This document shows, in pieces, positions 24,727 to 40,175 of a stretch of 64,000 nt of DNA; the first letter of the stretch is position 1, and every line of letters starts with the position of its first letter. The stretch is from positions 372,001-436,000 of the forward strand of contig NZ_CP051155.1 of assembly GCF_012277275.1 (NCBI RefSeq), in the 5' to 3' direction. Below the pieces are notes generated by a model. The model saw only the letters and a program-made list of their open reading frames with translations. It was not told where the DNA came from and did no database searches. Position numbers and translations under genes: made by a program. Origin of the DNA: Gephyromycinifex aptenodytis. Its GTDB lineage: Bacteria; Actinomycetota; Actinomycetes; Actinomycetales; Dermatophilaceae.

Positions 24727-27700
24727 GTGTCCCGATGGTGCCGTCCCGTAATGATGATCCGCGCGAGCCTGGTCTTCCTTCTGGTGGCCACCGGGGCGTT
24801 GGTCCCCATTGAGCCGCTTCTGGGCTCTCTGGCGCCCCGAGTTGCAGCCGCGGCCGAACCCTCGCCTGCGCCCATTCCAGGTGCCACCCTTACGTTCTCC
24901 CCGCCGCACCAGGGCGCAGACCTCCTGCTCGGTCGTCCCGAGACGGTGCGTTTCGTCGCCAAGAACGACTCGAATACACCGCAGTACAACGCGACCTTCC
25001 GGATCGTTCTGCCGTCCACAGCCAAAGACGTGACCGCGACGCTACGCGGGTCCACCGAATCCTGGGCGTCGAGGAATCCGCTCGGTGCAGCCACGTACAC
25101 CTACGCGCAGGGCACCAACACGGTCTACATCTGGGAGAACGCATCCGACCTGCTCGCCGGTGTCGCGACGGTCCTGGACGTTCAGGCCACCTTCACCGAG
25201 ACCGGCCCCGTGGACGTTCCGGGTGTGGTCTACGTCAACACCTCACCCAACTACGTTCCGGACTTCTACACCGAAGACGAAGCAGCGACGGCCAACGCTG
25301 CAACGCCCAAACCGGACCCTGTCATCAAGGCAGGCGACCTCAAACCCGGGACGCCCGTCGATGGCGTCACCGCCTCGACCTCCGCGACCGGAGCGATGAG
25401 CACCACGGGCAGCCTCAACATCGTTCCGTTCCTCATCGAGAAGGACATCGACGCCCCCGAGCACGAGGTCGTACGTGGCATCCACGACAACCGGTACCCC
25501 ACGAGCGTGACCATCACCAATAACGGCATCGGCCGATCCACCTTGGGGCAGGTCGTCGACTACATCCCTGCCGAGCTGGAATACCTGGGCTGCGGGGACG
25601 TCGACAACACCACGAATCAGACACCCGAGTATGAGGGGTCCGGGACTCTGGTGGGGACAGCGCTGTCCGGGTGTACCCCTGCTGACCGGGTTGAGACGGT
25701 GGAGATCTCGCAGGCAGAAGCGACGGCTTCACTGCCTGCCGGTGTCTACACCAAGCTGACGTGGAATGACGTCGGAGAACTGGCCGCGAACGCGAAGAAA
25801 ACCTACTCCTATCTGGTGGGGGCGCCGCAGCGGGCCAACGCCATGTGGCCCGGTAATGCCCCTGCAACAGGTGGTACGCAAGCGGCGAACCTGGACAACA
25901 ACACGGGCGCCGTGACCGCCGAGCCGGCGGGGGAGCGCAGCGCCATCGGCGCAGCGCTGGTCACCGGTAGCTACCTCGGTCGCTCAAGCACGGCCCGCGA
26001 TACCGAGACCGTGACCATCGAGGACCTGGCCGTCCAGAAGAGCACCAACGCCGAGACGATCAAGGTCGGCGGGACATCCACGTGGACCATCAACGCTCAG
26101 ATCAGTGAGTACGCCACGAGCTGGGACGGCGTGCAGATCACCGACGTCCTTCCCGACGGGTTGTGCCCGCAAGGAGTGATCCTCAGCGGCACGTCTCCGG
26201 GTGAGCCGTGCCCAGACAACGAAGCGCCGCCGGTTTCAGACCCGGCGGTCGCCGCCCCGACGGGGTCCTACAACACCGACGACGGAACGATCACGCTGAC
26301 CTGGTCTCCGGGTATTGCCGCGGGTACTGCCAGCGGCCCTGGGTTGCAGGGCAAACGCGCCACGTTGAGCTTCACCACCAAGACGATGGAGAACTACCGC
26401 GTCGCCGACAACGGGCGCGTGCTCGCCAACGACTCCTGGAGCAACACCGTCACGACAACCGGGGAGCTGACGGATCGGGATACGAGCGTCGGCAGTCGCC
26501 GACTGGGGGATCAGAGCAGCGCGGTGCAGCATGCCGGGGCAGTCGAATTCGCTAAGCAGGTCGCCGCTCCGGCCGACAACGGGTCCTGCGACCCGGCCGG
26601 GATCGCCCTGCGGGCATGGAGGTCCGACGCGTCGCCCTCGTTGCCGTTCGGCCCCGGCGACAAGGTGTGTTGGCGCATCACCCTCACCCTGCCCGAAACG
26701 CTGAGTACCGCCTCCGTTCGGATCACCGACACCCTGCCGCAGGGCCACGTCTGGACAGACAAGTGGGTGCAGGGAGCCGGCACTCGACCAGGTGGCGAAG
26801 CCTGGACGCCGAGCAGCCCCGATGGAACGCAACGATCGATCACCGTCGAGCCCCGTTACGAGATCCCGCAGAACGATCCGCTGGTCATCTACCTGGAGAG
26901 CCAGATCATCGACCCCAAGGGCGCCCAACCGGAGGATCTGACCGACAACCTCGCAAAGCTCAGCTACCAGGACACCAGCGGTGCGACCTACCAGGGTCGT
27001 GCCAGTGTCGGCGTGAAGTGGAACGAGCCAGCCCTGTCGATGTCGAAGTCGGCGCGAAACGTGACGAAGAACGCTGACGTCGCCGACGCGGCCAACAGCG
27101 CCGGGGACAGCATCGAGTACACCGTCACCGTCAAAAACGACGGCAACCTCGACGCCAAGCAGGTCGTCGTCTGGGATCGCTACCCCGCCCGAATGAGCTG
27201 TCCCGAGGCCATGACCAGCACCCTGAACGGTGTCCAGACCTCTTTGGAAACGAGCTGCGAGGGCGGCTTCGCCAAGGTCACCATCGCCGACATACCCGCT
27301 AACAAACAGGTGCTCCTGACCTACCAGCTAGCGGTCCCACAGGACCCGGCACCCGGTGAGACCTACACCAACACCGCCTACGTCACCCAGTTCCAGACAG
27401 ACACCAACCAGAGCGGCAAACCGTTCATCTTCGTCCCCGAGCGCGGACCTGACCCGTCGCTGACGAGCAACACGGAGCCCCTGCAGGGTCGGGCCGAGCT
27501 CGCCGTCACCGTGTCGCCGGCAACCATGGACAAGACGCACACGACGGCGGTGACCGAATCGGGTAACACCCAGGCTCAGGCCACGATCGGTGAGCGCATC
27601 GACTACAAGGTCACCGTGACGGTGCCCGCCAAGACCACCTTGCCGACCGGCACGGTCATCCGGGATGTTCTTGCCCCCGGCTTGGTGCTCTTGACCGATC

Positions 27701-30700
27701 CCGCGCCGGCGATGACGAGTCCCACCTTCACCGGCCTGGCCGCGCCGGAAGCCTCGACCGCCGATAACGGCTCGGTCACGTGGACGACCACCAGTCCGAT
27801 GAGCAATCCCGATGATGCCGCACGCTCACTCGTGCTGACCTACTCCGCGCGGGTCGCGAACAACTCCGATGCCGTGCACGGGGTCGCCCTGCAGAACACG
27901 GCGAACCTGGACTACCGCTCACCGGGGCCGAATCCGCAAGCGATCCACCTACAGGCCTCCACGCAGACCCCCGTCGTCGAACCCGACATCGACCTCAACA
28001 TGCAGATGGGTTCCACGCTCACCGCAGGTGGGACGGTCCCGTTGACCATCACCGCCACCAATATGGACGGTTCGTCGACGGCTCACGGGACCGTTGTGCG
28101 GGTGCAGGTTCCCGACGTGCTGCGATGCCCCGCCAGCGTGCCACCGATGGGAGAGGCCGAGGGAGCGTGCACCGAAACCGACGGTCGCTCGAGGATCATC
28201 GAATGGACGATCCCGACGCTCGCACCCGGCTCAAGCGTGCAGGCAACCGTCGAGCTGGGTGTGCCCGACCCTCTTGTCGTCGGTGCCAGCTACACGGTGA
28301 CGACCACCGTGGAGACGAGCAGCTTGGCCGATACACTTGCGGGTGAACGCACCCCCAGCGCCTTGGTCAACACGGACCGGTACATCGAATCGGAGAGCCG
28401 CGTTGCAGGTCGCCCCTGGCCGAGTATCGCTAAGACCTCGGTGCCGACTGCGACCATCGGTGAGCTCGTGGACTACACCATCACCGCGCGCGTGCCGGCC
28501 CACGCCACCCTGCACGACCTGACAGTGCTGGACGAGATGCCTACCGGTTTGAGCATCGAAAACACCGACACCCGTTCGTGCGCCGGTAGCAGCGGCGCCG
28601 GAACGGTGTCCGTCAGCGAGGACAAGAAGCGGCTCGTGTGGTGGCTGGACGAAGCGGCCGCTACCCGAACGAATATGAATGTCCCGTACGAGTGCACCAT
28701 GACGGTCCAGGCAAGGGTTGAGAACACCCAGGACACCAAACACGGGTACACCCTGAAGAACTGGGCGTACGTGGTCGGTTCCACCACGGACCGGCTCGAT
28801 GCCGCGCCGCCCATCCCCGTCGACGGCGGTACTCGCGCCGCCGCCCAGGGCTACGCCGTGTGGGAGGACGTGGATGCCAACCTCGGGCTGCGTGAACCCC
28901 GGCTGGCCATCAGCAAGAGTCACCAGGGCGGTAGCAACCTGCGCGTCAGCGCGGGCAACACCATCGACTACACCGTCACGGTGACCAACCAAAACTCGCC
29001 AGCCGCCTCCGTCGCCCACGACGTCAAGGTCGTCGACACCCTCCCGCTGGTGCTGCGTCCAGAGCTTGATGAGCAGGGCCGCGCCAAAGGGAAGATCGGC
29101 GGCCAGGATGTGACGGGTGTCTGGGATGAGCAAGCGCGCACCGTGACGTGGACGGTGCCCCAGATCGCCTCACAGGGCAACCTCACCATCACCTATCCGG
29201 CGACGGTCCTCACCGGAATCGACCCCAACCAACCGTTGCGGAACTCCGTTGTTGCTACCGCCAGTTCGTTGCCGGGGGCGAGTAGCTCCGAGCGGAGCAC
29301 CTACCGAGCAGCGACGAGCGATTCCGTCGGCCCGCAGGTGATCACCGTGACGAAAGCCCGCGCTTACGATCAGCTCGCCCCCGGTGGTGTGCAGACCTAC
29401 ACCGTGACGGCAACGATCCCGTCCGGGGTGCGCGTCTATGACCTGACGATCACCGACACACCTTCGCCGTATCTGAGTTACGAGGAGACGACCGGATCGG
29501 CCTGTACCTACGTGAACTTCGACGGCGGCACCGGCGCCTGCGACCTAGCGCCCCAGGTCAGCCCGACCAAGGACGCGGACGAGTTGCACTGGTTCGTCGG
29601 CGATATTGACGCCGTGCCTCAGGCACGGACCATCTCCATCACCTACACAGCACGGGTGACCTCGGCCGCGGCAGCCTCGAGCGCGACGTCGAACATCGTC
29701 AGCGCCGGCTGGAACGGCACCGACGTGATCCGCGCCAACCCCGCCCCGGACACGGACTGGACCACGACGTACGGCTCCGAACCAGCGCGCGCCGACTTCA
29801 CCGTGTCGGTTCCGTTCATTGCCGTCGCCAAGAGCGTCGCCGACGGGCAGACGGAGGTCCAGCATCGGCATGCGTCACCGGATGAACTGCTGCGCTACAC
29901 CCTCACGGTCAAGAACACCGGAACAGCCACGGCGCACGACGTCATGGTGTTCGATGACCGAACCGAAGGGCTCACCTTCGTCAAGGACTGCGACCGGCGG
30001 TTACCGCCACGGGTCAAACTCGGCGCGGAGACAACGACGCCGGGCTCGGGATTGACGCGCCAGTTCTTCACGATCGACGCACTGCAGCGGGATGAGGAAC
30101 TCTCGTTCTCATACTGCGTCAGGATCCCCGCTGATGCGGAACAGATCGTGGATCGCGGAGGCTACGACTTCGTCAACTTCGTCGACGCCACGTACGCCTC
30201 CCAGCCGAAAGGGACACCGCAACGAGCTCTGTACGACGATGTCGCCCCAGCAGGCACAGGCGTCGAAATCGACCTACCCGGTGGCCTCTCGGGCATGGTG
30301 TGGCTCGACCGGAACACCGATGGGAAGGCCGACGCCGATGAGGCACGTGTCCCTGATGCCACGGTGCGCATCACCGGGCCGCAGGGCTTCGACAAAAAGG
30401 TCATCACCGAAGCCAACGGTGTGTGGAGCTGGAAGGGCCACCTGCCGACGGGGGAGTACCAAGTAGTTCTCGCCAACGGCCCCCTCGCCGGCACAAGGAT
30501 CGATTCCTTCCGGCACGACAGGCTGCCGGACGGCGCGGCGATGACCTTCACCGAGAGCGAGGGCAAGCGCGTCGACGGTCTGGACATCGGGCTCGTCGGA
30601 ACACTTTCCCTCGGTGACCGCGTGTGGTGGGACGCGAACCGCGACGGCGTTCAGGACTCGGGAGAAGCCGGCATCGTCGGCGCTGCTGTGACCGCCGTCT

Positions 30701-32745
30701 GGGCGGGGTTCGACAATGTGTTCGGCACCGCCACCGAGCCGGGTGACGACCAGAGGTGGACCGTGGCTACCACCACCGACGGCGCCTACCTCATCGACCA
30801 CCTGCCCGCGGGCCGCTATCGGCTCACCACGGCAACAACGGACGCTACCGGCGCCTCAGCCTGGGACGTACCCACCTGGGACGTGGACTCAGGACCGTAC
30901 TCGGGCTCCGCCAGCTCAGGCAGTGCCCTCCAGCGGGCTCGCGTCGAACTGAGCCTGAGCCAATCGGAGACCGGCGTGGGAACGGTGACTACTACCGCTG
31001 AAGGCCCGGACGCGGACGGTATCGCGGCCACCGAGGTCGATTTCGGCTTCGTCAAGGCCGACCTGCAAATCGGGGATCTCGTCTGGCTCGACTACGACAG
31101 GGACGGCGAGCGCGATGTCTCCGCGAGCGGCCCGAGCGAACCGGGGGTCGCCGGCGTGCTGGTGCGAGCCACCTGGGCCGGACCTGACGGCGTGTTCGGA
31201 TCGCAGGAAGACCCAGGTGACGATCACACCTTCACCACGACAACCGATGGACAGGGCGGTTACACGCTCACCGGTCTGCCACCGGGGGAGTACACCGTGT
31301 CGATCGCTCCGCAGGGCCAGGACGCCTCATCGCTGACTCCATCCTGGGATCTGGACGGTGTGGACTTCAGCGCCACCAATCTCACGCTGGCTCCGACCGA
31401 CGCCGACGGTCGGCTCGTCCCGCAGGGAGTTGTCACGGTGCGTACTGGGAACCCGCAGAAACCCGCGGCCAGCGAACACCCGAATGACGCCGTAGATTTC
31501 GCCCTGATCGGAACGGCCCAGAGCGTGACCGGAGTGATCTTCCTGGATCGCGATGGTGACGGGTCGCAGGGCCCCGGCGAAAGCGGCATGCCGGGCATCA
31601 GGGTGAACGTGTGCTTCGCAAACGGGCGCTGCGAGGTGGTCACGACTGGCGCGGACGGCACCTGGAGTGTCGTCGACCCGCCCGCGGGTCCGGTGACCGC
31701 CACCGTGACCTCGTCCTTGCCGGCAGGTGCCAACACCACCTCCCAGTCCGGGAACACTCCGGTAGGCGGGCGCACTGAGCTACCTGCCGGCGTCACGTTC
31801 AGCGACGTTGCCGCTTTCGGTGACACCGTCTGGCGCGATGACAACCGCGACTACGTTCTCGACCCGGCAGAGCCGCCAGCCCCGAACGTTCTGGTGAGGG
31901 CGACGTGGGCAGGATTCGACGGTCTTCTCGACGGGGAGACTCTGCCCGGAGGTCGCAAGGCGGTCTCCGGCGATGACATCACCTTCACGACGCGCACCGG
32001 AGCGGATGGGCGATACCTCTTCGGGGATATGCCCTACGGCCGCTACCTGGTCCGCATCTCACAGGTACCGGCGGGTTGGACTCCGCAACAGGACCGTGAC
32101 GGTGCCGATCCGGCCGAAACCCTTCTCACCCTTGCCCAGGGGCAAGAGGATCTGGACGTCGATTTCGCGCTCAGGCAGCTGCCGGCACCACCGCGACCCA
32201 CGCCGCCCACCACGGTCAGCCCGACCGGAGAGCCAAATGACCCGACGGCCAACCCGACTGGCGGCCCGACTGGTGATCCAACTGGCGCCCCGACCGGCGA
32301 CCCGACCGGTGACCCGACGGTCAATCCGACCGGCGACCCGACCGGCGACCCGACCGGCGACCCGACCGGCGACCCGACCGGGGATCCGACGGCCGCTCCA
32401 TCCGTCTCGCCCACCCGCGCACCTGTGAAACCCGGACCGTCGAGCACGGCCGGTTCGGGAGGTACGAACGCGAAGGTCCACCCCAAAAAACCCACCAACG
32501 CTCGCAACACCCACCGGCCATCGTCCAAGGACACCTCGGGTGTTTCGCCTGAAACAGGCGCCAGCCGGGGGCGGACCGGGTCCACTGACTACCCGGGCGA
32601 CGGCAAGGACGGGTCCGGGACGCTGCCCTTCACCGGGGCTGCCATCTGGACGTTGACCGGCACTGGGGTGATGCTGCTCCTGCTCGGGGCAGCTCTGCTC
32701 ACGCTCGTACGCCGTCGCCGGGATTCTTGGACGCTGAAGGGGTGA
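24727..32745 (+). CDS. Giant LPXTG-type surface protein with DUF11 and SdrD B-like repeats
   Basis: A 2672-residue secreted adhesin-like protein; the GTG at 24727 follows AGGAGC. Signal peptide ends near AAAAEPSP (about residue 42). About ten DUF11-type modules occupy roughly 230-1840, marked by YTVTVKNDGN, YTVTVTNQN and openings such as SMSKSARNV (about 770), AISKSHQGG (about 1392) and VAKSVADGQ (about 1697). Five SdrD/Cna B-like modules follow (about 1853-2480): VWLDRNTDGKAD, VWWDANRDGVQD, VWLDYDRDGERD, IFLDRDGDGSQG, VWRDDNRDYVLD. A PTGD repeat spacer leads to LPFTG (about 2633), a membrane segment and RRRR. It is likely wall-anchored by the upstream sortase and may mediate attachment. Confidence 0.92.
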   Translation: MSRWCRPVMMIRASLVFLLVATGALVPIEPLLGSLAPRVAAAAEPSPAPIPGATLTFSPPHQGADLLLGRPETVRFVAKNDSNTPQYNATFRIVLPSTAKDVTATLRGSTESWASRNPLGAATYTYAQGTNTVYIWENASDLLAGVATVLDVQATFTETGPVDVPGVVYVNTSPNYVPDFYTEDEAATANAATPKPDPVIKAGDLKPGTPVDGVTASTSATGAMSTTGSLNIVPFLIEKDIDAPEHEVVRGIHDNRYPTSVTITNNGIGRSTLGQVVDYIPAELEYLGCGDVDNTTNQTPEYEGSGTLVGTALSGCTPADRVETVEISQAEATASLPAGVYTKLTWNDVGELAANAKKTYSYLVGAPQRANAMWPGNAPATGGTQAANLDNNTGAVTAEPAGERSAIGAALVTGSYLGRSSTARDTETVTIEDLAVQKSTNAETIKVGGTSTWTINAQISEYATSWDGVQITDVLPDGLCPQGVILSGTSPGEPCPDNEAPPVSDPAVAAPTGSYNTDDGTITLTWSPGIAAGTASGPGLQGKRATLSFTTKTMENYRVADNGRVLANDSWSNTVTTTGELTDRDTSVGSRRLGDQSSAVQHAGAVEFAKQVAAPADNGSCDPAGIALRAWRSDASPSLPFGPGDKVCWRITLTLPETLSTASVRITDTLPQGHVWTDKWVQGAGTRPGGEAWTPSSPDGTQRSITVEPRYEIPQNDPLVIYLESQIIDPKGAQPEDLTDNLAKLSYQDTSGATYQGRASVGVKWNEPALSMSKSARNVTKNADVADAANSAGDSIEYTVTVKNDGNLDAKQVVVWDRYPARMSCPEAMTSTLNGVQTSLETSCEGGFAKVTIADIPANKQVLLTYQLAVPQDPAPGETYTNTAYVTQFQTDTNQSGKPFIFVPERGPDPSLTSNTEPLQGRAELAVTVSPATMDKTHTTAVTESGNTQAQATIGERIDYKVTVTVPAKTTLPTGTVIRDVLAPGLVLLTDPAPAMTSPTFTGLAAPEASTADNGSVTWTTTSPMSNPDDAARSLVLTYSARVANNSDAVHGVALQNTANLDYRSPGPNPQAIHLQASTQTPVVEPDIDLNMQMGSTLTAGGTVPLTITATNMDGSSTAHGTVVRVQVPDVLRCPASVPPMGEAEGACTETDGRSRIIEWTIPTLAPGSSVQATVELGVPDPLVVGASYTVTTTVETSSLADTLAGERTPSALVNTDRYIESESRVAGRPWPSIAKTSVPTATIGELVDYTITARVPAHATLHDLTVLDEMPTGLSIENTDTRSCAGSSGAGTVSVSEDKKRLVWWLDEAAATRTNMNVPYECTMTVQARVENTQDTKHGYTLKNWAYVVGSTTDRLDAAPPIPVDGGTRAAAQGYAVWEDVDANLGLREPRLAISKSHQGGSNLRVSAGNTIDYTVTVTNQNSPAASVAHDVKVVDTLPLVLRPELDEQGRAKGKIGGQDVTGVWDEQARTVTWTVPQIASQGNLTITYPATVLTGIDPNQPLRNSVVATASSLPGASSSERSTYRAATSDSVGPQVITVTKARAYDQLAPGGVQTYTVTATIPSGVRVYDLTITDTPSPYLSYEETTGSACTYVNFDGGTGACDLAPQVSPTKDADELHWFVGDIDAVPQARTISITYTARVTSAAAASSATSNIVSAGWNGTDVIRANPAPDTDWTTTYGSEPARADFTVSVPFIAVAKSVADGQTEVQHRHASPDELLRYTLTVKNTGTATAHDVMVFDDRTEGLTFVKDCDRRLPPRVKLGAETTTPGSGLTRQFFTIDALQRDEELSFSYCVRIPADAEQIVDRGGYDFVNFVDATYASQPKGTPQRALYDDVAPAGTGVEIDLPGGLSGMVWLDRNTDGKADADEARVPDATVRITGPQGFDKKVITEANGVWSWKGHLPTGEYQVVLANGPLAGTRIDSFRHDRLPDGAAMTFTESEGKRVDGLDIGLVGTLSLGDRVWWDANRDGVQDSGEAGIVGAAVTAVWAGFDNVFGTATEPGDDQRWTVATTTDGAYLIDHLPAGRYRLTTATTDATGASAWDVPTWDVDSGPYSGSASSGSALQRARVELSLSQSETGVGTVTTTAEGPDADGIAATEVDFGFVKADLQIGDLVWLDYDRDGERDVSASGPSEPGVAGVLVRATWAGPDGVFGSQEDPGDDHTFTTTTDGQGGYTLTGLPPGEYTVSIAPQGQDASSLTPSWDLDGVDFSATNLTLAPTDADGRLVPQGVVTVRTGNPQKPAASEHPNDAVDFALIGTAQSVTGVIFLDRDGDGSQGPGESGMPGIRVNVCFANGRCEVVTTGADGTWSVVDPPAGPVTATVTSSLPAGANTTSQSGNTPVGGRTELPAGVTFSDVAAFGDTVWRDDNRDYVLDPAEPPAPNVLVRATWAGFDGLLDGETLPGGRKAVSGDDITFTTRTGADGRYLFGDMPYGRYLVRISQVPAGWTPQQDRDGADPAETLLTLAQGQEDLDVDFALRQLPAPPRPTPPTTVSPTGEPNDPTANPTGGPTGDPTGAPTGDPTGDPTVNPTGDPTGDPTGDPTGDPTGDPTAAPSVSPTRAPVKPGPSSTAGSGGTNAKVHPKKPTNARNTHRPSSKDTSGVSPETGASRGRTGSTDYPGDGKDGSGTLPFTGAAIWTLTGTGVMLLLLGAALLTLVRRRRDSWTLKG
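32219..32391 (+). repeat. 12-bp tandem repeats encoding a PTGD spacer
   Basis: About fourteen 12-base units of the type CCGACCGGCGAC, translated PTGD with variants PTGG, PTGA, PTVN and PTAA. Several central copies are identical, which favours slippage. The stretch forms a wall-spanning spacer before the sortase signal. Confidence 0.92.
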
Positions 32746-33961: not shown

Positions 33962-34339
33962 TCACGCTTCGGCCCCGCCTCGCGTCCACAGCGCGGGCGT
34001 GGTCGTGGTGATCGGCACGAGACCGGCGCGCGCCAGGATGGGTTGGGACAGGTGCGTGCAGTCAGCGCGTAGGTAGGACCTGCCGCGCGCCGCCGCCGAC
34101 CTGGCTCGGGCGGCGGTGAGCGCGCGGTACAGCCCGAGCCCGCGGTGGGCCGTGTCGCAGGCGCCGCCCCACAGACCAGCGAAGTCGGTGCCGTCGACGA
34201 AGTCGATTCGCCCGGAGCGCACGATCCGCCCGGCGGGTCCGCGTATGAACCAGATCTGGAGCGAACCAGGTGCGGTGCGCACCCGGTCGATGAGTTCCCC
34301 GGCGCGCTGGGCAGATCGCTCAGCGCTGTCGCCGAACAC
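33962..34339 (-). CDS. GNAT-type acetyltransferase, probably N-terminally truncated
   Basis: A 125-residue frame from a GTG start. LWGGACDTAHRGLGLYRAL matches the acetyl-CoA-binding R/Q-x-x-G-x-G/A region of GNAT enzymes, followed by the typical SQPILARAGLVPI end. Homology-like sequence seems to continue in the same frame upstream (PDDDIIEAEALAATVFGD) to a stop at 34418-34420 with no good start codon, and related proteins are usually about 100 residues longer. An A+T-rich patch begins at that point. It may be a broken gene left at an island edge. Substrate unknown. Confidence 0.6.
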   Translation of the reverse strand: MFGDSAERSAQRAGELIDRVRTAPGSLQIWFIRGPAGRIVRSGRIDFVDGTDFAGLWGGACDTAHRGLGLYRALTAARARSAAARGRSYLRADCTHLSQPILARAGLVPITTTTPALWTRGGAEA

Positions 34340-34461: not shown

Positions 34462-35268
34462 GTGGTGACGTCAAAGGGTTTGTCAGGCAGAGCAGCTCTG
34501 ATCACGGGTGTGAGTCGCGCACGCGGCATCGGTTTCTCGGTGGCATCGCGGTTTGCGCGGGCGGGTGCGAGTCTGTATCTCACCCACAACGTCGGCCACG
34601 ATCAAGCCCAGCCATGGGGTGGGCAAGACATCTATTCAGTGATGGCCGAACTGTCAGCGCAGCTGCATGATGGCGCGGTGCTGCGGCATACGCACGCGGA
34701 CTTCGAGGACCCAGCCGAGGCGTCGAGAGTGATCGACTGGTTGGACCAGCCGGTCGACATTCTTGTGGCCAACCATGCCCGTTCTGGTGGCGACAGTAGC
34801 CTGGCGCACATCACCGCGGGGGAGTTGGAGTCGCATTGGCGGGTGAATGCGCAATCGGTGTTGTTGCTCACTCAAGGATTTGCACAGCAATGTGTGGGGG
34901 AGTCGGGCCGCGTCATCTGGATGACGTCCGGGCAGGCGCTGGGCCCGATGCCCGGCGAGGTGGGGTACGCGGGTACCAAGGCAATGTTGGCGGGGCTGGT
35001 TCCGACGGTGGCTGATGAATTGATCGACCGGGGGATTCTGCTCAACGCCGTTAATCCCGGGCCGGTTAATACCGGTTATCTGGATCCCGAGACCATCTAC
35101 AGCCGGGAGTTGTGCGAAGACCTGTTGCAGCGGTTCCCGCTGGGTAGGTTCGGTGAACCGGACGACCCAGCTCGCCTCGTCGAGTTTTTGGTCTCTGATG
35201 CGGGGCGGTGGATTGTCGGGCAGGTCATCGATTCCGAGGGTGGCTTCAGACGGTGGACGCTGACCTAG
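34462..35268 (+). CDS. Short-chain dehydrogenase/reductase (SDR)
   Basis: A 268-residue Rossmann oxidoreductase. The cofactor loop is TGVSRARGIGFSVA; catalytic residues are Ser in TSGQALGP and Tyr/Lys in YAGTK; LVANHARSGG is the NAG-like motif and VNPGPVNTGYL follows. GAAGGG precedes the start; GTG at 34462 or 34465 is possible. The C-terminus GQVIDSEGGFRR is usual in 3-oxoacyl-ACP reductase-like members. The substrate is unknown. The gene stands alone at the edge of the variable island and its third codon positions look less GC-biased than those of its neighbours. Confidence 0.85.
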   Translation: MVTSKGLSGRAALITGVSRARGIGFSVASRFARAGASLYLTHNVGHDQAQPWGGQDIYSVMAELSAQLHDGAVLRHTHADFEDPAEASRVIDWLDQPVDILVANHARSGGDSSLAHITAGELESHWRVNAQSVLLLTQGFAQQCVGESGRVIWMTSGQALGPMPGEVGYAGTKAMLAGLVPTVADELIDRGILLNAVNPGPVNTGYLDPETIYSRELCEDLLQRFPLGRFGEPDDPARLVEFLVSDAGRWIVGQVIDSEGGFRRWTLT

Positions 35269-35450: not shown

Positions 35451-37118
35451 TCAGGTTGAGCCTTTCGGAGGTAGCGCACCGATGTGGGCCTCAACCTCAG
35501 CCAAGGTGGTGCACTCGCTTTCGATGGTGTCCCACCACCTGCTCTGCGTTGCCGCGTAGGTGCCATACCGGCCATAGTTCATTTGCGCTCGCGAGACGAC
35601 GAGTCCATGCCGGGCCCGCGAAAGCATGACGAGCAGAACGCGATGTTCCTCGATCAGCGCTTCGCCGTGGCTGCTCTTCTTGTGGGGCATGTGCCCCTCC
35701 TCCAGGCCGATGACGAACACCCAGTCGAACTCTTGTCCCTTACCGGCATGAGCATTGAGAAGGTGCACTCCAGGACCGACCGCCTGATTCGGGTCGGACA
35801 CGCGGATCGAACTCAGCGCTTCTCGGGCAGTGCTGGACCGGCCTTGCTCCAAGGCGGCGAAGGCATCATTGACCTGTTCCAAGGTGTCCACGTCAGAAGG
35901 ATCGACGGCGTCGAGCACCGCTTCGCGCGCAACATCGAGTGTTGCGCCACGAGGCAGCGACGCGACCATCTCCCGGATAAGGGCGACTACACGAGGGTCC
36001 TCCAGCGCCAGGTCCCACCTTCGCACGGGGATGTCAGGCAGCGAGGTGAACGCCCTGTCAATATCCTCGCGACGCCATCCGGCCCTGCTAATCACTCCTA
36101 CTGAAGCGGTTGGGTCACGTTCGATGATCTGTTGCGTCAGGCCGACCACAAGACGAGCCTCAGCGGCCCGGTCTTGCACTACGAGCGCGGCGGAGCAGCC
36201 ACCCATGGGCCAGCGCTCGGGTCTTGCGGAGATCAGTTGCGTTGTCGAGGCGAGAGATCTGCTCACGGAGTTGACGGTGGCCAGTACACCCGGCGAGGCG
36301 CGGTATGACTCTCGGAGCATGATGGGCTCGGCACACGAGTCCCGCACTTCTCGCTCGACCTGCTCGGGCGCGGCTCCGGCCCACGAGAAGATGCCTTGCA
36401 TCGGGTCCCCGGCGTAGGTCTGCCGCGCTGTGCAGCTGAGGCGTACGAGGTCAAGTTGCTGGAGCGATAGGTCTTGGAACTCATCGACCAGAACAGCGCC
36501 GAAGTGACAGCGATACAAATGGCCGACAGCCGGGATTCGCAGCAATCGCTGGGCGTGCCGAAGCAGGTCCTGGTAGTGAAGTTGCTTGGCTGTCTGGCGT
36601 TCCTTTTCGACACGGAGCGCCAGATCAGCACCGACGCAATCCCTCTTCTTCGTGAGGGCGTCGATGACTTCATCGTCGGAGAGGGGCGCCCGCTTGACCT
36701 CATCAAGAAGGTCCTCGGCGGCCCTTCTCCTCTCCACATTCGTCCCCGTCGCCTCCAATGCCTTGCGCAGCCTGCTGGTCGTGGGTAGCAGGAGACCGCC
36801 AGGGTCCAGACCGATGGTCCGACCATGGGCGAGGACGACTTCGGTAGCGTGCCCGTGGAAGTTGCGCACAGTCACGTAGCGGCGCATCCGTGCGTAGCCG
36901 AGTACGTTGCGCAGCCGCTCATGGAGATTCGTCTTAGCGCGGTTGGTGAAAGTGAGCGCAAGGATGCGTTGGTTCGGCCCGAGGAACTGGATCAGGTGGT
37001 CGGCGCGATGCGCTAGAACTTCGGTCTTGCCGCAACCCGGGGGCGCGATGATCATGGCGTGCCGCGCTTTTGCCTTTGCGGCGGCGGAATGCTCCCCGCT
37101 GAGCGCCTCGACCTTCAT
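35451..37118 (-). CDS. gajB: Gabija-type protein GajB, UvrD-like helicase
   Basis: A 555-residue superfamily 1 helicase-like protein. Motif I IIAPPGCGKTEVLAHRA (about 23-39), ALTFTNRAK (Ia), Walker B VLVDEFQDLSLQQ, QTYAGDPMQGIFSWAGA (III), RESYRASP (IV), NAHAGKGQEFDWVFVIGL (V) and LLVMLSRARHGLVV (VI). It starts inside the stop of the OLD-nuclease gene (ATGA overlap), the standard GajA-GajB order. In Gabija, GajB is activated by free DNA ends and works with GajA against phage. Assignment rests on the gene pair; UvrD-like proteins alone are common. Confidence 0.83.
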   Translation of the reverse strand: MKVEALSGEHSAAAKAKARHAMIIAPPGCGKTEVLAHRADHLIQFLGPNQRILALTFTNRAKTNLHERLRNVLGYARMRRYVTVRNFHGHATEVVLAHGRTIGLDPGGLLLPTTSRLRKALEATGTNVERRRAAEDLLDEVKRAPLSDDEVIDALTKKRDCVGADLALRVEKERQTAKQLHYQDLLRHAQRLLRIPAVGHLYRCHFGAVLVDEFQDLSLQQLDLVRLSCTARQTYAGDPMQGIFSWAGAAPEQVEREVRDSCAEPIMLRESYRASPGVLATVNSVSRSLASTTQLISARPERWPMGGCSAALVVQDRAAEARLVVGLTQQIIERDPTASVGVISRAGWRREDIDRAFTSLPDIPVRRWDLALEDPRVVALIREMVASLPRGATLDVAREAVLDAVDPSDVDTLEQVNDAFAALEQGRSSTAREALSSIRVSDPNQAVGPGVHLLNAHAGKGQEFDWVFVIGLEEGHMPHKKSSHGEALIEEHRVLLVMLSRARHGLVVSRAQMNYGRYGTYAATQSRWWDTIESECTTLAEVEAHIGALPPKGST

Positions 37119-38731
37119 AGAAGGTCCAGGCCTTCTAGAGTGTGGAGAAGCCGCGCGACGCTGCCGATTCTCTCCGCCGATTCCTTGGTGAGCGATTCAC
37201 CGACGCACACCGCCGCCGATACCTTGTCCTTACGGCAGTACGCGGCGATCACTTCTGGAGTGATGTCCTCGATGACCTTGACTCCGGCGGTCTGGATTAC
37301 AGCGGCTTCCCGGCAGTGCCCGCCGCTGATCAGGGCTCGCGCAGTGCCCGGACCGCCCAGCGCCTCGGCATACTCATCCTCCAAGTCTGCATCCGAGACG
37401 AACACGCACTTGTCCACGATGGTGGCAGCCTTACCCCCGAAGGCGCCGATCCAACTTCCGCTCTCCTGCCGGTCCACCAGGCCAAGAAGGGTGGGGCCAA
37501 AGCCATCGGGCCCGAGCAGTGGGAAGACATTCCTGAACTTCTCCGCGCCGTCCAGGTCCACTACGACCGCCCCCAGCCGGTCTAGATCGATTTCCAGGGC
37601 GCGCGCAACAGCCTCCACGATCACACGGTCTGCGGCTCCCTCGACCAGGATCACGAACCGCGCTGCTAATGCCTCTAGCAGGCGCGGCGACCACCAGTGC
37701 GCTCGCACCTTCTCGACTTTCGATAGTGTGCTGGAACCAATCTGGCGGGCGGTCCCGTACCGATCTATCGCAATAATTTCGGCCGGCTCAAAGCGGTGCA
37801 GGATGTAGGGCGAGTGGGTCACGAGAATCTTCTGGTTTCCCTCGCCGCTGAGCAAGTCTGCGATCGTTCGCTGGCTGGTCGGATGAAGGTGCAGTTCCGG
37901 CTCGTCAATAGCGATGACGTTCGCAGCCCCTTCCGCGAGGTCGAAGAGCGTCATCGCCATCAGTTGGCGCACACCGTCCGACTGCTCATGGAGGGAGACC
38001 TGGTGCTCGTCACGGTTCAGGAAAAGCGCGACGTTGCCGAGCATGTCCTTCTCTGGGTCAGCGACGCTGCGGATGGCGAACTCCTCCCGCTCCACTTGGC
38101 GTGGCATCGCACGGCTGAGATGGGTCGCAACCGTTGTTAGGAGGTCACCCACCGACTCGTTCGCATCCAGTTCTTCATTGAACTGGGTCAACAGGTTCTT
38201 CAGAGTCTTCTCGTTGTCGCCGAGGTCGGCAGCGTCGAGGAGCGTCCTCACCGGGCTCATCGGACCCTCCATGATCGAAGCCCCCCTCGTTGCTCTGAGA
38301 TAGCGCCAGCCGAAGGCTTCCAGTTGCTCGCGGCTCGGCACCCGCTCGTGTCCGCTTTCGGGGAACCACCGCCGCACCGTGACTGCCTCGTCATCCTCGG
38401 GGTGAGCCTCGACGCGCATCTGAACCCAGAGCGACTCACTCTCTTGGTCCTCAGCCACACTGATCTCAGCGGGGAACGGCGCTCGGTCCTTGTCGCTGAA
38501 GTCGGTCCAAATGACATCGACCAGCAGAGGCTGCTGGGGGTCCCGCAGATCGCTTGGGGACAGGGCCTGGTACAGGCTGGCCGTTGACGAACCGAGCGCT
38601 AGATTCAGCATTCGGAGGATCGACGACTTTCCGACGTCGTTGGCGCCAACGATGACGGCGTGTCTCCTCAGTTCAAGGTCCAGGTCCCGGACCCGGCTGT
38701 GGTTTTTTATAGTCACCCTGGATATGCGCAT
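37115..38731 (-). CDS. gajA: Gabija-type protein GajA, OLD-family ATPase/TOPRIM nuclease
   Basis: A 538-residue class 2 OLD nuclease. N-terminal ABC-type ATPase: Walker A VGANDVGKSS (about 28-37), a signature-like stretch HEQSDGVRQLMAM, Walker B NVIAIDEPELHLHP, and the switch histidine in ILVTHSPYIL. The C-terminal TOPRIM domain starts FVILVEGAADRVIVEAVA (metal Glu), then VVVDLDGAEKF and LLGLVDRQ. GajA senses nucleotide depletion during phage attack and nicks DNA, with GajB. Length is slightly below the 578 residues of the Bacillus example. Flanking transposon remnants suggest acquisition by transfer. Confidence 0.85.
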   Translation of the reverse strand: MRISRVTIKNHSRVRDLDLELRRHAVIVGANDVGKSSILRMLNLALGSSTASLYQALSPSDLRDPQQPLLVDVIWTDFSDKDRAPFPAEISVAEDQESESLWVQMRVEAHPEDDEAVTVRRWFPESGHERVPSREQLEAFGWRYLRATRGASIMEGPMSPVRTLLDAADLGDNEKTLKNLLTQFNEELDANESVGDLLTTVATHLSRAMPRQVEREEFAIRSVADPEKDMLGNVALFLNRDEHQVSLHEQSDGVRQLMAMTLFDLAEGAANVIAIDEPELHLHPTSQRTIADLLSGEGNQKILVTHSPYILHRFEPAEIIAIDRYGTARQIGSSTLSKVEKVRAHWWSPRLLEALAARFVILVEGAADRVIVEAVARALEIDLDRLGAVVVDLDGAEKFRNVFPLLGPDGFGPTLLGLVDRQESGSWIGAFGGKAATIVDKCVFVSDADLEDEYAEALGGPGTARALISGGHCREAAVIQTAGVKVIEDITPEVIAAYCRKDKVSAAVCVGESLTKESAERIGSVARLLHTLEGLDLL

Positions 38732-39081: not shown

Positions 39082-39340
39082 TCACTGCACGTCCACCAAC
39101 CGTCCGTCGCCGTTGCTTAGCCGCACGAAGAAATCGGGGACGTGATCGCCGGAGTGGTCGGCCCTCTGCGTCGTTCGTGCCTTGGTCACATAGGACCCCC
39201 AGCGGGCTGGGATGAGATGCCTACGACCTCAGGGCCATGATCTGCGCTCAGGAGGTACCGCCGCTCCAGCAGGCTTTCGGCCCGGTGTGCGGCGCGTCGT
39301 CGTGGAGGACCACAACAGCTGTGCGCCTACCCGGCCAAGC
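39082..39340 (-). pseudogene. TnsA-like transposase endonuclease remnant with frameshifts
   Basis: Three stretches in different minus-strand frames line up in order with actinobacterial TnsA-like heteromeric transposase subunits (remembered pattern): QLLWSSTTTRR, then ESLLERRYLLSADHGPEVVG continuing ISSQPAG, then DHVPDFFVRLSNGDGRLVDV ending in Q and a stop at 39082. The family pattern is W.S.TT, YESWLERD, VVGIASQP, HAPDYFVRRADG, VVDVR. At least two frameshifts and loss of the C-terminal half make it non-functional. Confidence 0.7.
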
Positions 39341-39554: not shown

Positions 39555-40175
39555 TCAGGAGTCTTGAATCACCGATCCGTCGTCAGCGTTGATCTCCACC
39601 TCAACGTCGTCGGATGCACCAGCGGGTTGAATATCAAATTCGTACTTAACCAGTCCGCTGTCCTTGCCCTCCATCTTCCATTCTCGAATGCTGCCGTCCT
39701 GCTGCTTGCGCGCGGCATCGGCGGCCTGCTGCACATCGATGAGCGAGTCGGGATCGAAGATCTTGGCGCGCTTCTTCGTGGCGTCGTCGCCCAGGTCATC
39801 CCGCTTCTCGGAGAGCTTGGACAAAGTGTTCGCGTCGTATTGGACAGCAAACTTATCCGCGGCGGAAAGGAGTTCGATCTTGTACTCCAGTCCACCGTTT
39901 TCCCGGCGCTCGAGCTCGATTTTACTCACCTGGCCATCGAATTCTTCCTGCGCCGCTTTGAGTGCGTCCTGCCATCCCTTGGCTGGCGGGTTGGCCACGA
40001 CGTCCTCATCGGTGGCGTTCGACGAAGAATCTTGGGCCGTCGCCGGGGTTGAGGCTGCAACTGGCGACGGGGACTGCGCCGGTGGCGCGGTGTCGGAATC
40101 GGCACCTGAACTGCAGGCGGTCATTAAACCGAGAGTTGCAACGATAGATAGAACGGGCACATATTTACGACGCAT
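39555..40175 (-). CDS. Lipoprotein with PepSY-like domains
   Basis: A 206-residue exported protein. The start MRRKYVPVLS leads into a hydrophobic stretch and the lipobox LMTACSS, so Cys21 is the lipidation site. A Ser/Pro/Ala/Asp-rich linker (about 22-60) is followed by two repeats resembling PepSY: GWQDALKAAQEEFDGQVSKIELE with LEYKIELL, then SLIDVQQAADAARKQQDGSI with VKYEFDIQ, ending VEVEINADDGSV. PepSY domains are thought to inhibit or chaperone extracellular proteases. No protease gene adjoins it. Confidence 0.85.
   Translation of the reverse strand: MRRKYVPVLSIVATLGLMTACSSGADSDTAPPAQSPSPVAASTPATAQDSSSNATDEDVVANPPAKGWQDALKAAQEEFDGQVSKIELERRENGGLEYKIELLSAADKFAVQYDANTLSKLSEKRDDLGDDATKKRAKIFDPDSLIDVQQAADAARKQQDGSIREWKMEGKDSGLVKYEFDIQPAGASDDVEVEINADDGSVIQDS

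Follow-up and report, generated by a model that had tools for sequence, protein, structure and literature searches.

A Gabija-type nuclease–helicase gene pair of Gephyromycinifex aptenodytis with a conserved DxxE variant of the TOPRIM DxD motif

Gabija, described as occurring in about 15% of genomes (PMC10781630), combines the nuclease GajA with the helicase GajB. In the published accounts GajA is a tetramer that associates with GajB, its DNA cutting is inhibited by ATP, and GajB is a (d)ATP/(d)GTPase (PMC10781630, PMC10822852, PMC10568477); for a Pseudomonas Gabija, a block of phage genome circularisation is reported where RecBCD is kept off the DNA ends (PMC12407980). Here, we analysed a stretch of 64,000 nucleotides from Gephyromycinifex aptenodytis (contig NZ_CP051155.1, positions 372,001 to 436,000), termed the window, which carries a nuclease–helicase gene pair whose composition supports its assignment as a two-gene system of the known Gabija kind. 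By analogy with the Bacillus cereus system, the pair is probably an anti-phage module that was acquired by horizontal transfer.

On the minus strand, the gajA-like gene (37115..38731) comes first and encodes a protein of 538 amino acids with an amino-terminal OLD/ABC ATPase domain, a carboxy-terminal TOPRIM domain and a helical region, followed by the gajB-like gene (35451..37118) for a UvrD/PcrA/Rep-like superfamily 1 (SF1) helicase of 555 amino acids. Both open reading frames (ORFs) are uninterrupted and share an ATGA overlap (37115..37118, minus strand; TCAT on the plus strand), with the helicase ATG at 37118–37116 and the nuclease stop TGA at 37117–37115, an arrangement that may serve translational coupling. 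The original prediction, drawn up from the sequence alone, had named this pair, its overlap, the GajA Walker A motif GANDVGKS (residues 29–36; 38624..38647, minus strand) and the TOPRIM start ILVEGAAD (residues 361–368), all of which we confirmed in the sequence.

Searches against PADLOC gave the GajA model PDLC00075 as the best match of the nuclease with 553 bits, followed by another GajA model (125 bits), AriA (85 bits) and Old (78 bits), and the GajB model PDLC00121 as the best match of the helicase with 516 bits, the next model reaching 162 bits. Over the Pfam cut-offs we found AAA_15, AAA_21, DUF2813 and OLD-like_TOPRIM for the nuclease as well as UvrD-helicase and UvrD_C for the helicase; among the NCBIfam matches listed, none exceeded its cut-off. 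The window helicase contains the SF1 UvrD/Rep motifs, namely Walker A (GCGKT), the DExQD box (DEFQD) and motif VI (LSRAR). In a 12-row GajB alignment (A2), GCGKTE, DEFQDL and MxSRAR were invariant, and the three window motifs invariant or nearly so. As the Pfam domains lie over their cut-offs and the pair recurs in relatives, these matches are not due to chance, and the Gabija identity proposed from gene composition is borne out by the PADLOC profiles together with this recurrence.

The genome_contigs scan yielded eight loci, seven at 70–71% identity (Gulosibacter, Brevibacterium, Leifsonia, Gordonia otitidis, a Dermatophilus metagenome-assembled genome, Arthrobacter and Gordonia sp.) and one in Gordonia polyisoprenivorans at 38%. 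The plasmid search added Rhodococcus pN2 and pGA1 (72–73%), Mycolicibacterium chubuense (44%) and Corynebacterium callunae (40%), besides 145 further records at lower identity, where shown mostly over part of the protein. The window clade (~70% identity) comprises 11 distinct copies, the window included and the identical L053 and L064 counted once. The helicase directly follows GajA in all 11 of these, including the two copies carried by Rhodococcus plasmids; that of L056 is cut short by the end of its contig (59% identity, residues 6–150). The 4-base overlap is present in 9/9 other clade copies in which the helicase start was read, and in 11 deeper members the helicase likewise adjoins GajA. 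A conserved third gene was rejected, as a flanking frame was shared by at most two of the ten copies compared at E ≤ 1e-8, a set from which L077, whose flanks are short, was left out.

At E ≤ 1e-30, the profile search of whole genomes gave matches in 13 of the 396 genomes searched from the order and in 4 of the 394 from the class, each count including the own genome. The order-wide search also showed a deeper member of 35% identity with the helicase alongside in G658, a genome of the same family as the source. At E ≤ 0.001 the PADLOC model matched 282 of 396 phylum genomes but also 10 of 14 control genomes, indicating that this threshold is unspecific; a GajA search of 57 other genomes gave a match at E ≤ 0.001 in 35, the best reaching at most 77 bits. 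One scan of viral_contigs with a single protein returned 14 pattern matches with no relative among them, and in phages only one distant partial match was seen (73% of the query at 24.7%). In another genome of the source family, L003 (G003:C1:559948-560292) encodes a 118-residue piece that is 43% identical (76.9 bits) to GajA residues 26–143 and is interrupted by a single in-frame stop; it may be left over from a related gene.

Several observations weigh against the assignment to Gabija. In a single-sequence phmmer search, the class 1 nuclease TsOLD ranked marginally above the B. cereus protein BcGajA (52.3 versus 49.4 bits). TsOLD (6p74) was also the top VIA-align match of the predicted GajA fold (Z 27.5, root-mean-square deviation (rmsd) 5.1, 446 aligned), and the identity to solved GajA in structure alignments was low, at 11–20%. 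Among solved proteins, the helicase scored 101–115 bits with PcrA, Rep and UvrD and 21 bits with BcGajB. The DxD motif of class 2 OLD nucleases is broken, the position of its second aspartate being occupied by Q422, followed by E423. In genus g55 of family f4, GajB was not found in the 6.7–12.5 kb fetched from each of four genomes (L103, L104, L105, L107). Finally, the nucleotide-sensing model was derived for a single system, that of B. cereus, and published accounts of the trigger differ (PMC10568477, PMC12407980).

We compared the active site residue by residue. For BcGajA, the site is described as E379, E383, D432, D434, D511, residue 513 and K541 (PMC10822852), residue 513 being a glutamate in the chain sequence; the window copy has E364, D368, D420, Q422, D449, E451 and K503. 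TOPRIM motif 1, E364 to D368 (37628..37642, minus strand), aligns with E379 and E383, so that the TOPRIM glutamate, the second acidic residue of motif 1 and, with D420, the first DxD aspartate of a class 2 OLD site are all present. The altered motif D420-R421-Q422-E423 (DxxE; 37463..37474, minus strand) lies in a stretch that, up to residue 423, aligns gap-free nearby with XccOLD, whose DRD stands opposite the window DRQ; matches to PdxS at E 0.02 in this comparison were taken as chance. G395, invariant among the aligned rows, aligns with BcGajA 410, the published glycine being 409. D449 and E451 (DLE motif; 37379..37387, minus strand) are likewise invariant and candidate second metal-site residues; their equivalence to BcGajA 511/513 and to BpOLD leans on conservation as well as on weak alignment pieces of 3.9 and −1.8 bits, singly non-significant. 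The invariant K503 (37223..37225, minus strand), located in the carboxy-terminal helical region, is a candidate catalytic lysine by conservation and position, its putative role being taken from BpOLD K562.

The DxD motif is kept in 14 of 28 GajA family rows, whereas the other 14 (13 distinct) all carry a glutamate three residues past the first aspartate, namely all 11 window-clade copies and two deeper relatives. The single genus g55 accounts for five of the 14 DxD rows, and five of five distant GajA-type rows show the DxD pattern in the searched stretch. On the full-length tree, which was built without L057, L075 and L076, the DxxE label requires two changes, and L023 and the distant rows form long branches; alignment A4 was made without four plasmid rows, L036 was not aligned, and L065 is the window itself. 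PDLC00075 scores were higher for the DxD members L063 (821 bits) and L062 (776 bits) than for the window (553 bits) and L060 (552 bits), but the split does not track the motif, since the DxD member L072 reached 547 and the DxxE member L078 460 bits.

The same motif is usual in stand-alone OLD-like TOPRIM proteins, where 18 of the 20 examined carry DxxE, the exceptions being L033 (Ala) and L050 (DxD). This set comprises L005, L006, L017, L027, L030–L033, L035, L037–L039, L041–L045, L047, L050 and L051; L008 and L040 stand outside it, as do additional matches for which no loci were given. These proteins resemble the window GajA in the DxxE motif, in their carboxy-terminal similarity and in scoring about 60–82 bits with PDLC00075, and differ from it in being without the ATPase domain; PF20469 was over its cut-off in three of the four scanned. 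They occur in many actinobacteria, and relatives on Streptomyces plasmids are annotated as ATP-dependent endonucleases. An origin of the window-clade TOPRIM domain from such proteins was rejected, as a 100/100 branch separates the GajA rows from the stand-alone rows.

As DxxE is shared across the clade, and both the remaining catalytic residues and the helical region typical of class 2 are retained, it looks like a stable active-site variant and not like decay. In published OLD and Gabija accounts, a complete active site includes DxD, and the ligands of class 2 enzymes are said to be absolutely conserved. For BpOLD, the second DxD aspartate is reported to act via metal-bound waters, single substitutions are without discernible effect, and nicking persists when one metal site is disturbed (PMC6755086), whereas the D455A substitution in P2 OLD abolished killing in vivo (PMC7049728). 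The tolerance of BpOLD, despite the loss in P2 OLD, and the conservation across the clade suggest a conserved variant that is probably active, and with its DxD motif broken we class the locus as a variant-site Gabija pair, its active site not being that of a canonical class 2 OLD enzyme. Among the entries listed in literature searches, no title or abstract opening reported a DxxE change in Toprim. These same data leave some room for a Gabija pair whose nuclease nicks only or is otherwise altered, with metal A held differently and DNA nicked but not processively degraded. Both the BpOLD and the P2 OLD results are in line with this explanation, as is the spread of DxxE through the clade and the stand-alone proteins, but E423 may supply the missing carboxylate, and we consider an altered nuclease possible yet rather unlikely.

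The predicted fold bears on whether the nuclease belongs to another OLD system, for which the profiles favour Gabija, whereas single-sequence and fold comparisons do not clearly separate BcGajA from class 1 TsOLD and partly place TsOLD first. A 13-row GajA profile reverses the phmmer order (BcGajA 83 bits, TsOLD 79 bits). The AlphaFold2 monomer model of GajA (26 sequences) reached a mean predicted local distance difference test (pLDDT) score of 84.8 and a predicted template modelling (pTM) score of 0.79; Foldseek ranked GajA 8u7i first and TsOLD second, and VIA-align gave Z 20.8–24.5 for BcGajA. The carboxy-terminal region of BpOLD (6nk8) aligned with Z 17.5 (rmsd 2.6, 174 aligned), GajA residues 353–537 matching 6nk8 391–594, and XccOLD (6njv) with Z 16.7–17.0. 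Past residue 449 the model predicts seven helices, as in the class 2 carboxy-terminal helical domain, and the locus departs from the class 1 arrangement of a single gene without helicase or helical domain.

The branch in genus g55 shows that the coupling to the helicase is not universal. Its GajA proteins are of the same PADLOC type with DxD intact (L103:5149-6744, L104:5448-7151, L105:5113-6816, L107:5560-6651); in the fifth genome, L106, the contig stops 117 bases past the GajA ORF. The GajB profile found one match in each of the five genomes at E ≤ 1e-30 (ORFs of 852–964 amino acids, 132–141 bits), which we take for ordinary UvrD/PcrA, and in three GajB-bearing genomes the same search gave best matches of 480–706 bits plus weaker ones. 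The absence of a helicase partner in relatives, named beforehand as grounds for refuting the Gabija reading, is thus not seen in the close clade but does occur in this deeper branch. GajA is followed by an ADP-ribosylglycohydrolase gene (PF03747) in L103 and L107; upstream, the L103 copy has a 184-residue ORF without Pfam match that overlaps the GajA start by 4 bases.

This branch, the rank of TsOLD among the best solved matches and a length of 538 residues, short for class 2, could speak for an OLD nuclease akin to class 1 that serves housekeeping or repair, its helicase neighbour then reflecting operon convenience. Length as a sign of class 1 was rejected, since the carboxy-terminal helical region is present. 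The margin of the GajA over the Old profile, the helicase retained in every close copy, the alignment of the carboxy-terminal region with class 2 regions bearing the helical domain that TsOLD is without, and the scattered, partly plasmid-borne distribution all argue against this explanation, making it very improbable.

Of the sites that are fixed across nine relatives in the clade, those changed in the window number 33/323, 22/417 and 11/55 for GajA (codon positions 1, 2 and 3) and 44/290, 37/353 and 18/48 for GajB. Changes favour position 3 over position 2 (Fisher p = 5e-4 and 7e-6, respectively), showing that constraint persists in the window lineage; fixed sites kept by the window amount to 279/305 in GajA and 224/271 in GajB. 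Its position 2/3 ratios of 0.26 and 0.28 exceed those of three control rows (0.07–0.16), which may reflect some relaxation in this lineage or just its greater length. An inactive, decaying copy, to which these departures, the split GajA of one relative (L057:6001-7618, Arthrobacter sp. Hiyo8, helicase open) and the degraded appearance of the stretch beside the pair could point, is very unlikely given two open frames, active-site positions as in the clade and the persisting codon-position bias. Open frames and constraint in the window lineage thus speak for the pair being intact and putatively functional; the original prediction had overlooked the replaced second aspartate.

Spread of the pair by gene transfer is supported by its scattered distribution and plasmid copies and, moderately, by its G+C content of 62.7%, as compared with an average of 66.7% (range 62.4–69.7) across 20 samples of 6 kb taken from the genome; among 120 stretches sampled at the length of the pair, 5 had a G+C content as low. 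The PepSY-domain gene at 39555-40175 (minus strand) has a G+C content of 58.5%, which extends the low-G+C stretch to about 34.5 to 40.5 kb. The flanking remnants from which transfer had been argued hardly support it. The ORF labelled a truncated GNAT gene (33962-34339) matched nothing in Pfam at E ≤ 0.01 and is separated from the pair by an intact, low-G+C short-chain dehydrogenase gene outside the system (34462..35268, plus strand). The possible TnsA-like remnant, also outside the system (39085..39144, minus strand), is weak, its 20 residues being 70–75% identical to three annotated TnsA-like proteins at E of only 0.03–0.2; the Pfam TnsA profile found no match in the whole genome at E ≤ 1. 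As Tn7-like transposons are described as often carrying OLD/Gabija genes (338 transposons; PMC8649781), this stretch is suggestive, although the profile test failed. The left flank gene occurs in 2/38 genomes and the right flank hydrolase in 18/38, the own included in each; for want of a common left flank, an empty site could not be demonstrated.

In the relatives, four of six neighbouring proteins scanned match PADLOC (type I and IIG restriction, SIR2-type PDC-S65 and part of PDC-S60). A SIR2-like gene beside the Brevibacterium gallinarum pair (L053:3402-5366, minus strand) matches the PADLOC candidate PDC-S65 with 484 bits, and defence-island settings are seen with a type IIG restriction-methylation gene (L058:10256-13608) and type I restriction genes (L061:1731-7905). 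Elsewhere in the window, 24727-32745 (plus strand) encodes a repetitive surface-type protein of 2672 amino acids whose carboxy terminus, with LPFTG followed by a hydrophobic segment and basic residues, we take to be like that of a sortase substrate.

If the pair works as the B. cereus system does, GajA tetramers would make up the ATPase-nuclease core to which GajB helicases bind, and would be quiet at normal nucleotide levels. Infection would deplete nucleotides and/or expose unprotected DNA ends, whereupon GajA would cut phage or other foreign DNA, with GajB acting on DNA ends. The TOPRIM metal site would be built from E364, D368, D420, D449 and E451 plus K503, and E423 would stand in for the usual second DxD aspartate.

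The module is mostly ordinary Gabija in kind, its points of interest being the DxxE site and the branch without GajB. A more far-reaching reading, which we consider possible yet rather unlikely, is that the clade and the stand-alone TOPRIM proteins use a distinct DxxE metal site, kept through horizontal spread, that changes how Gabija cuts, for example towards nicking, and that elsewhere the same GajA type dropped GajB and acts alone or with other partners. Gabija biochemistry rests on few proteins, and an actinobacterial clade in which one catalytic residue has changed naturally lends itself to asking which of the TOPRIM ligands are required; DxD and DxxE members are near enough for residue swaps, and the branch without GajB can reveal what the helicase contributes.

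Among known systems, the pair belongs by a wide margin to the PADLOC PDLC00075/PDLC00121 subfamily. It shares with B. cereus VD045 Gabija, as described (PMC10781630, PMC10822852), the gene pair, domain layout, fold, most active-site residues and the SF1 helicase partner, but differs in the length of GajA (538 versus 578 amino acids), in DxxE for DxD and D368 for E383, and in a GajB nearer in sequence to PcrA/Rep than to BcGajB. The class 2 OLD proteins of Burkholderia pseudomallei (6nk8) and Xanthomonas campestris (6njv) resemble it in the TOPRIM domain with carboxy-terminal helical region (Z about 17) and in the reported helicase neighbour (PMC6755086), the replaced second DxD aspartate setting the window apart. 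The Thermus scotoductus class 1 OLD (6p74) is similar to the window GajA in ATPase/TOPRIM fold and length, yet is described as a single gene without a carboxy-terminal helical domain (PMC7049728).

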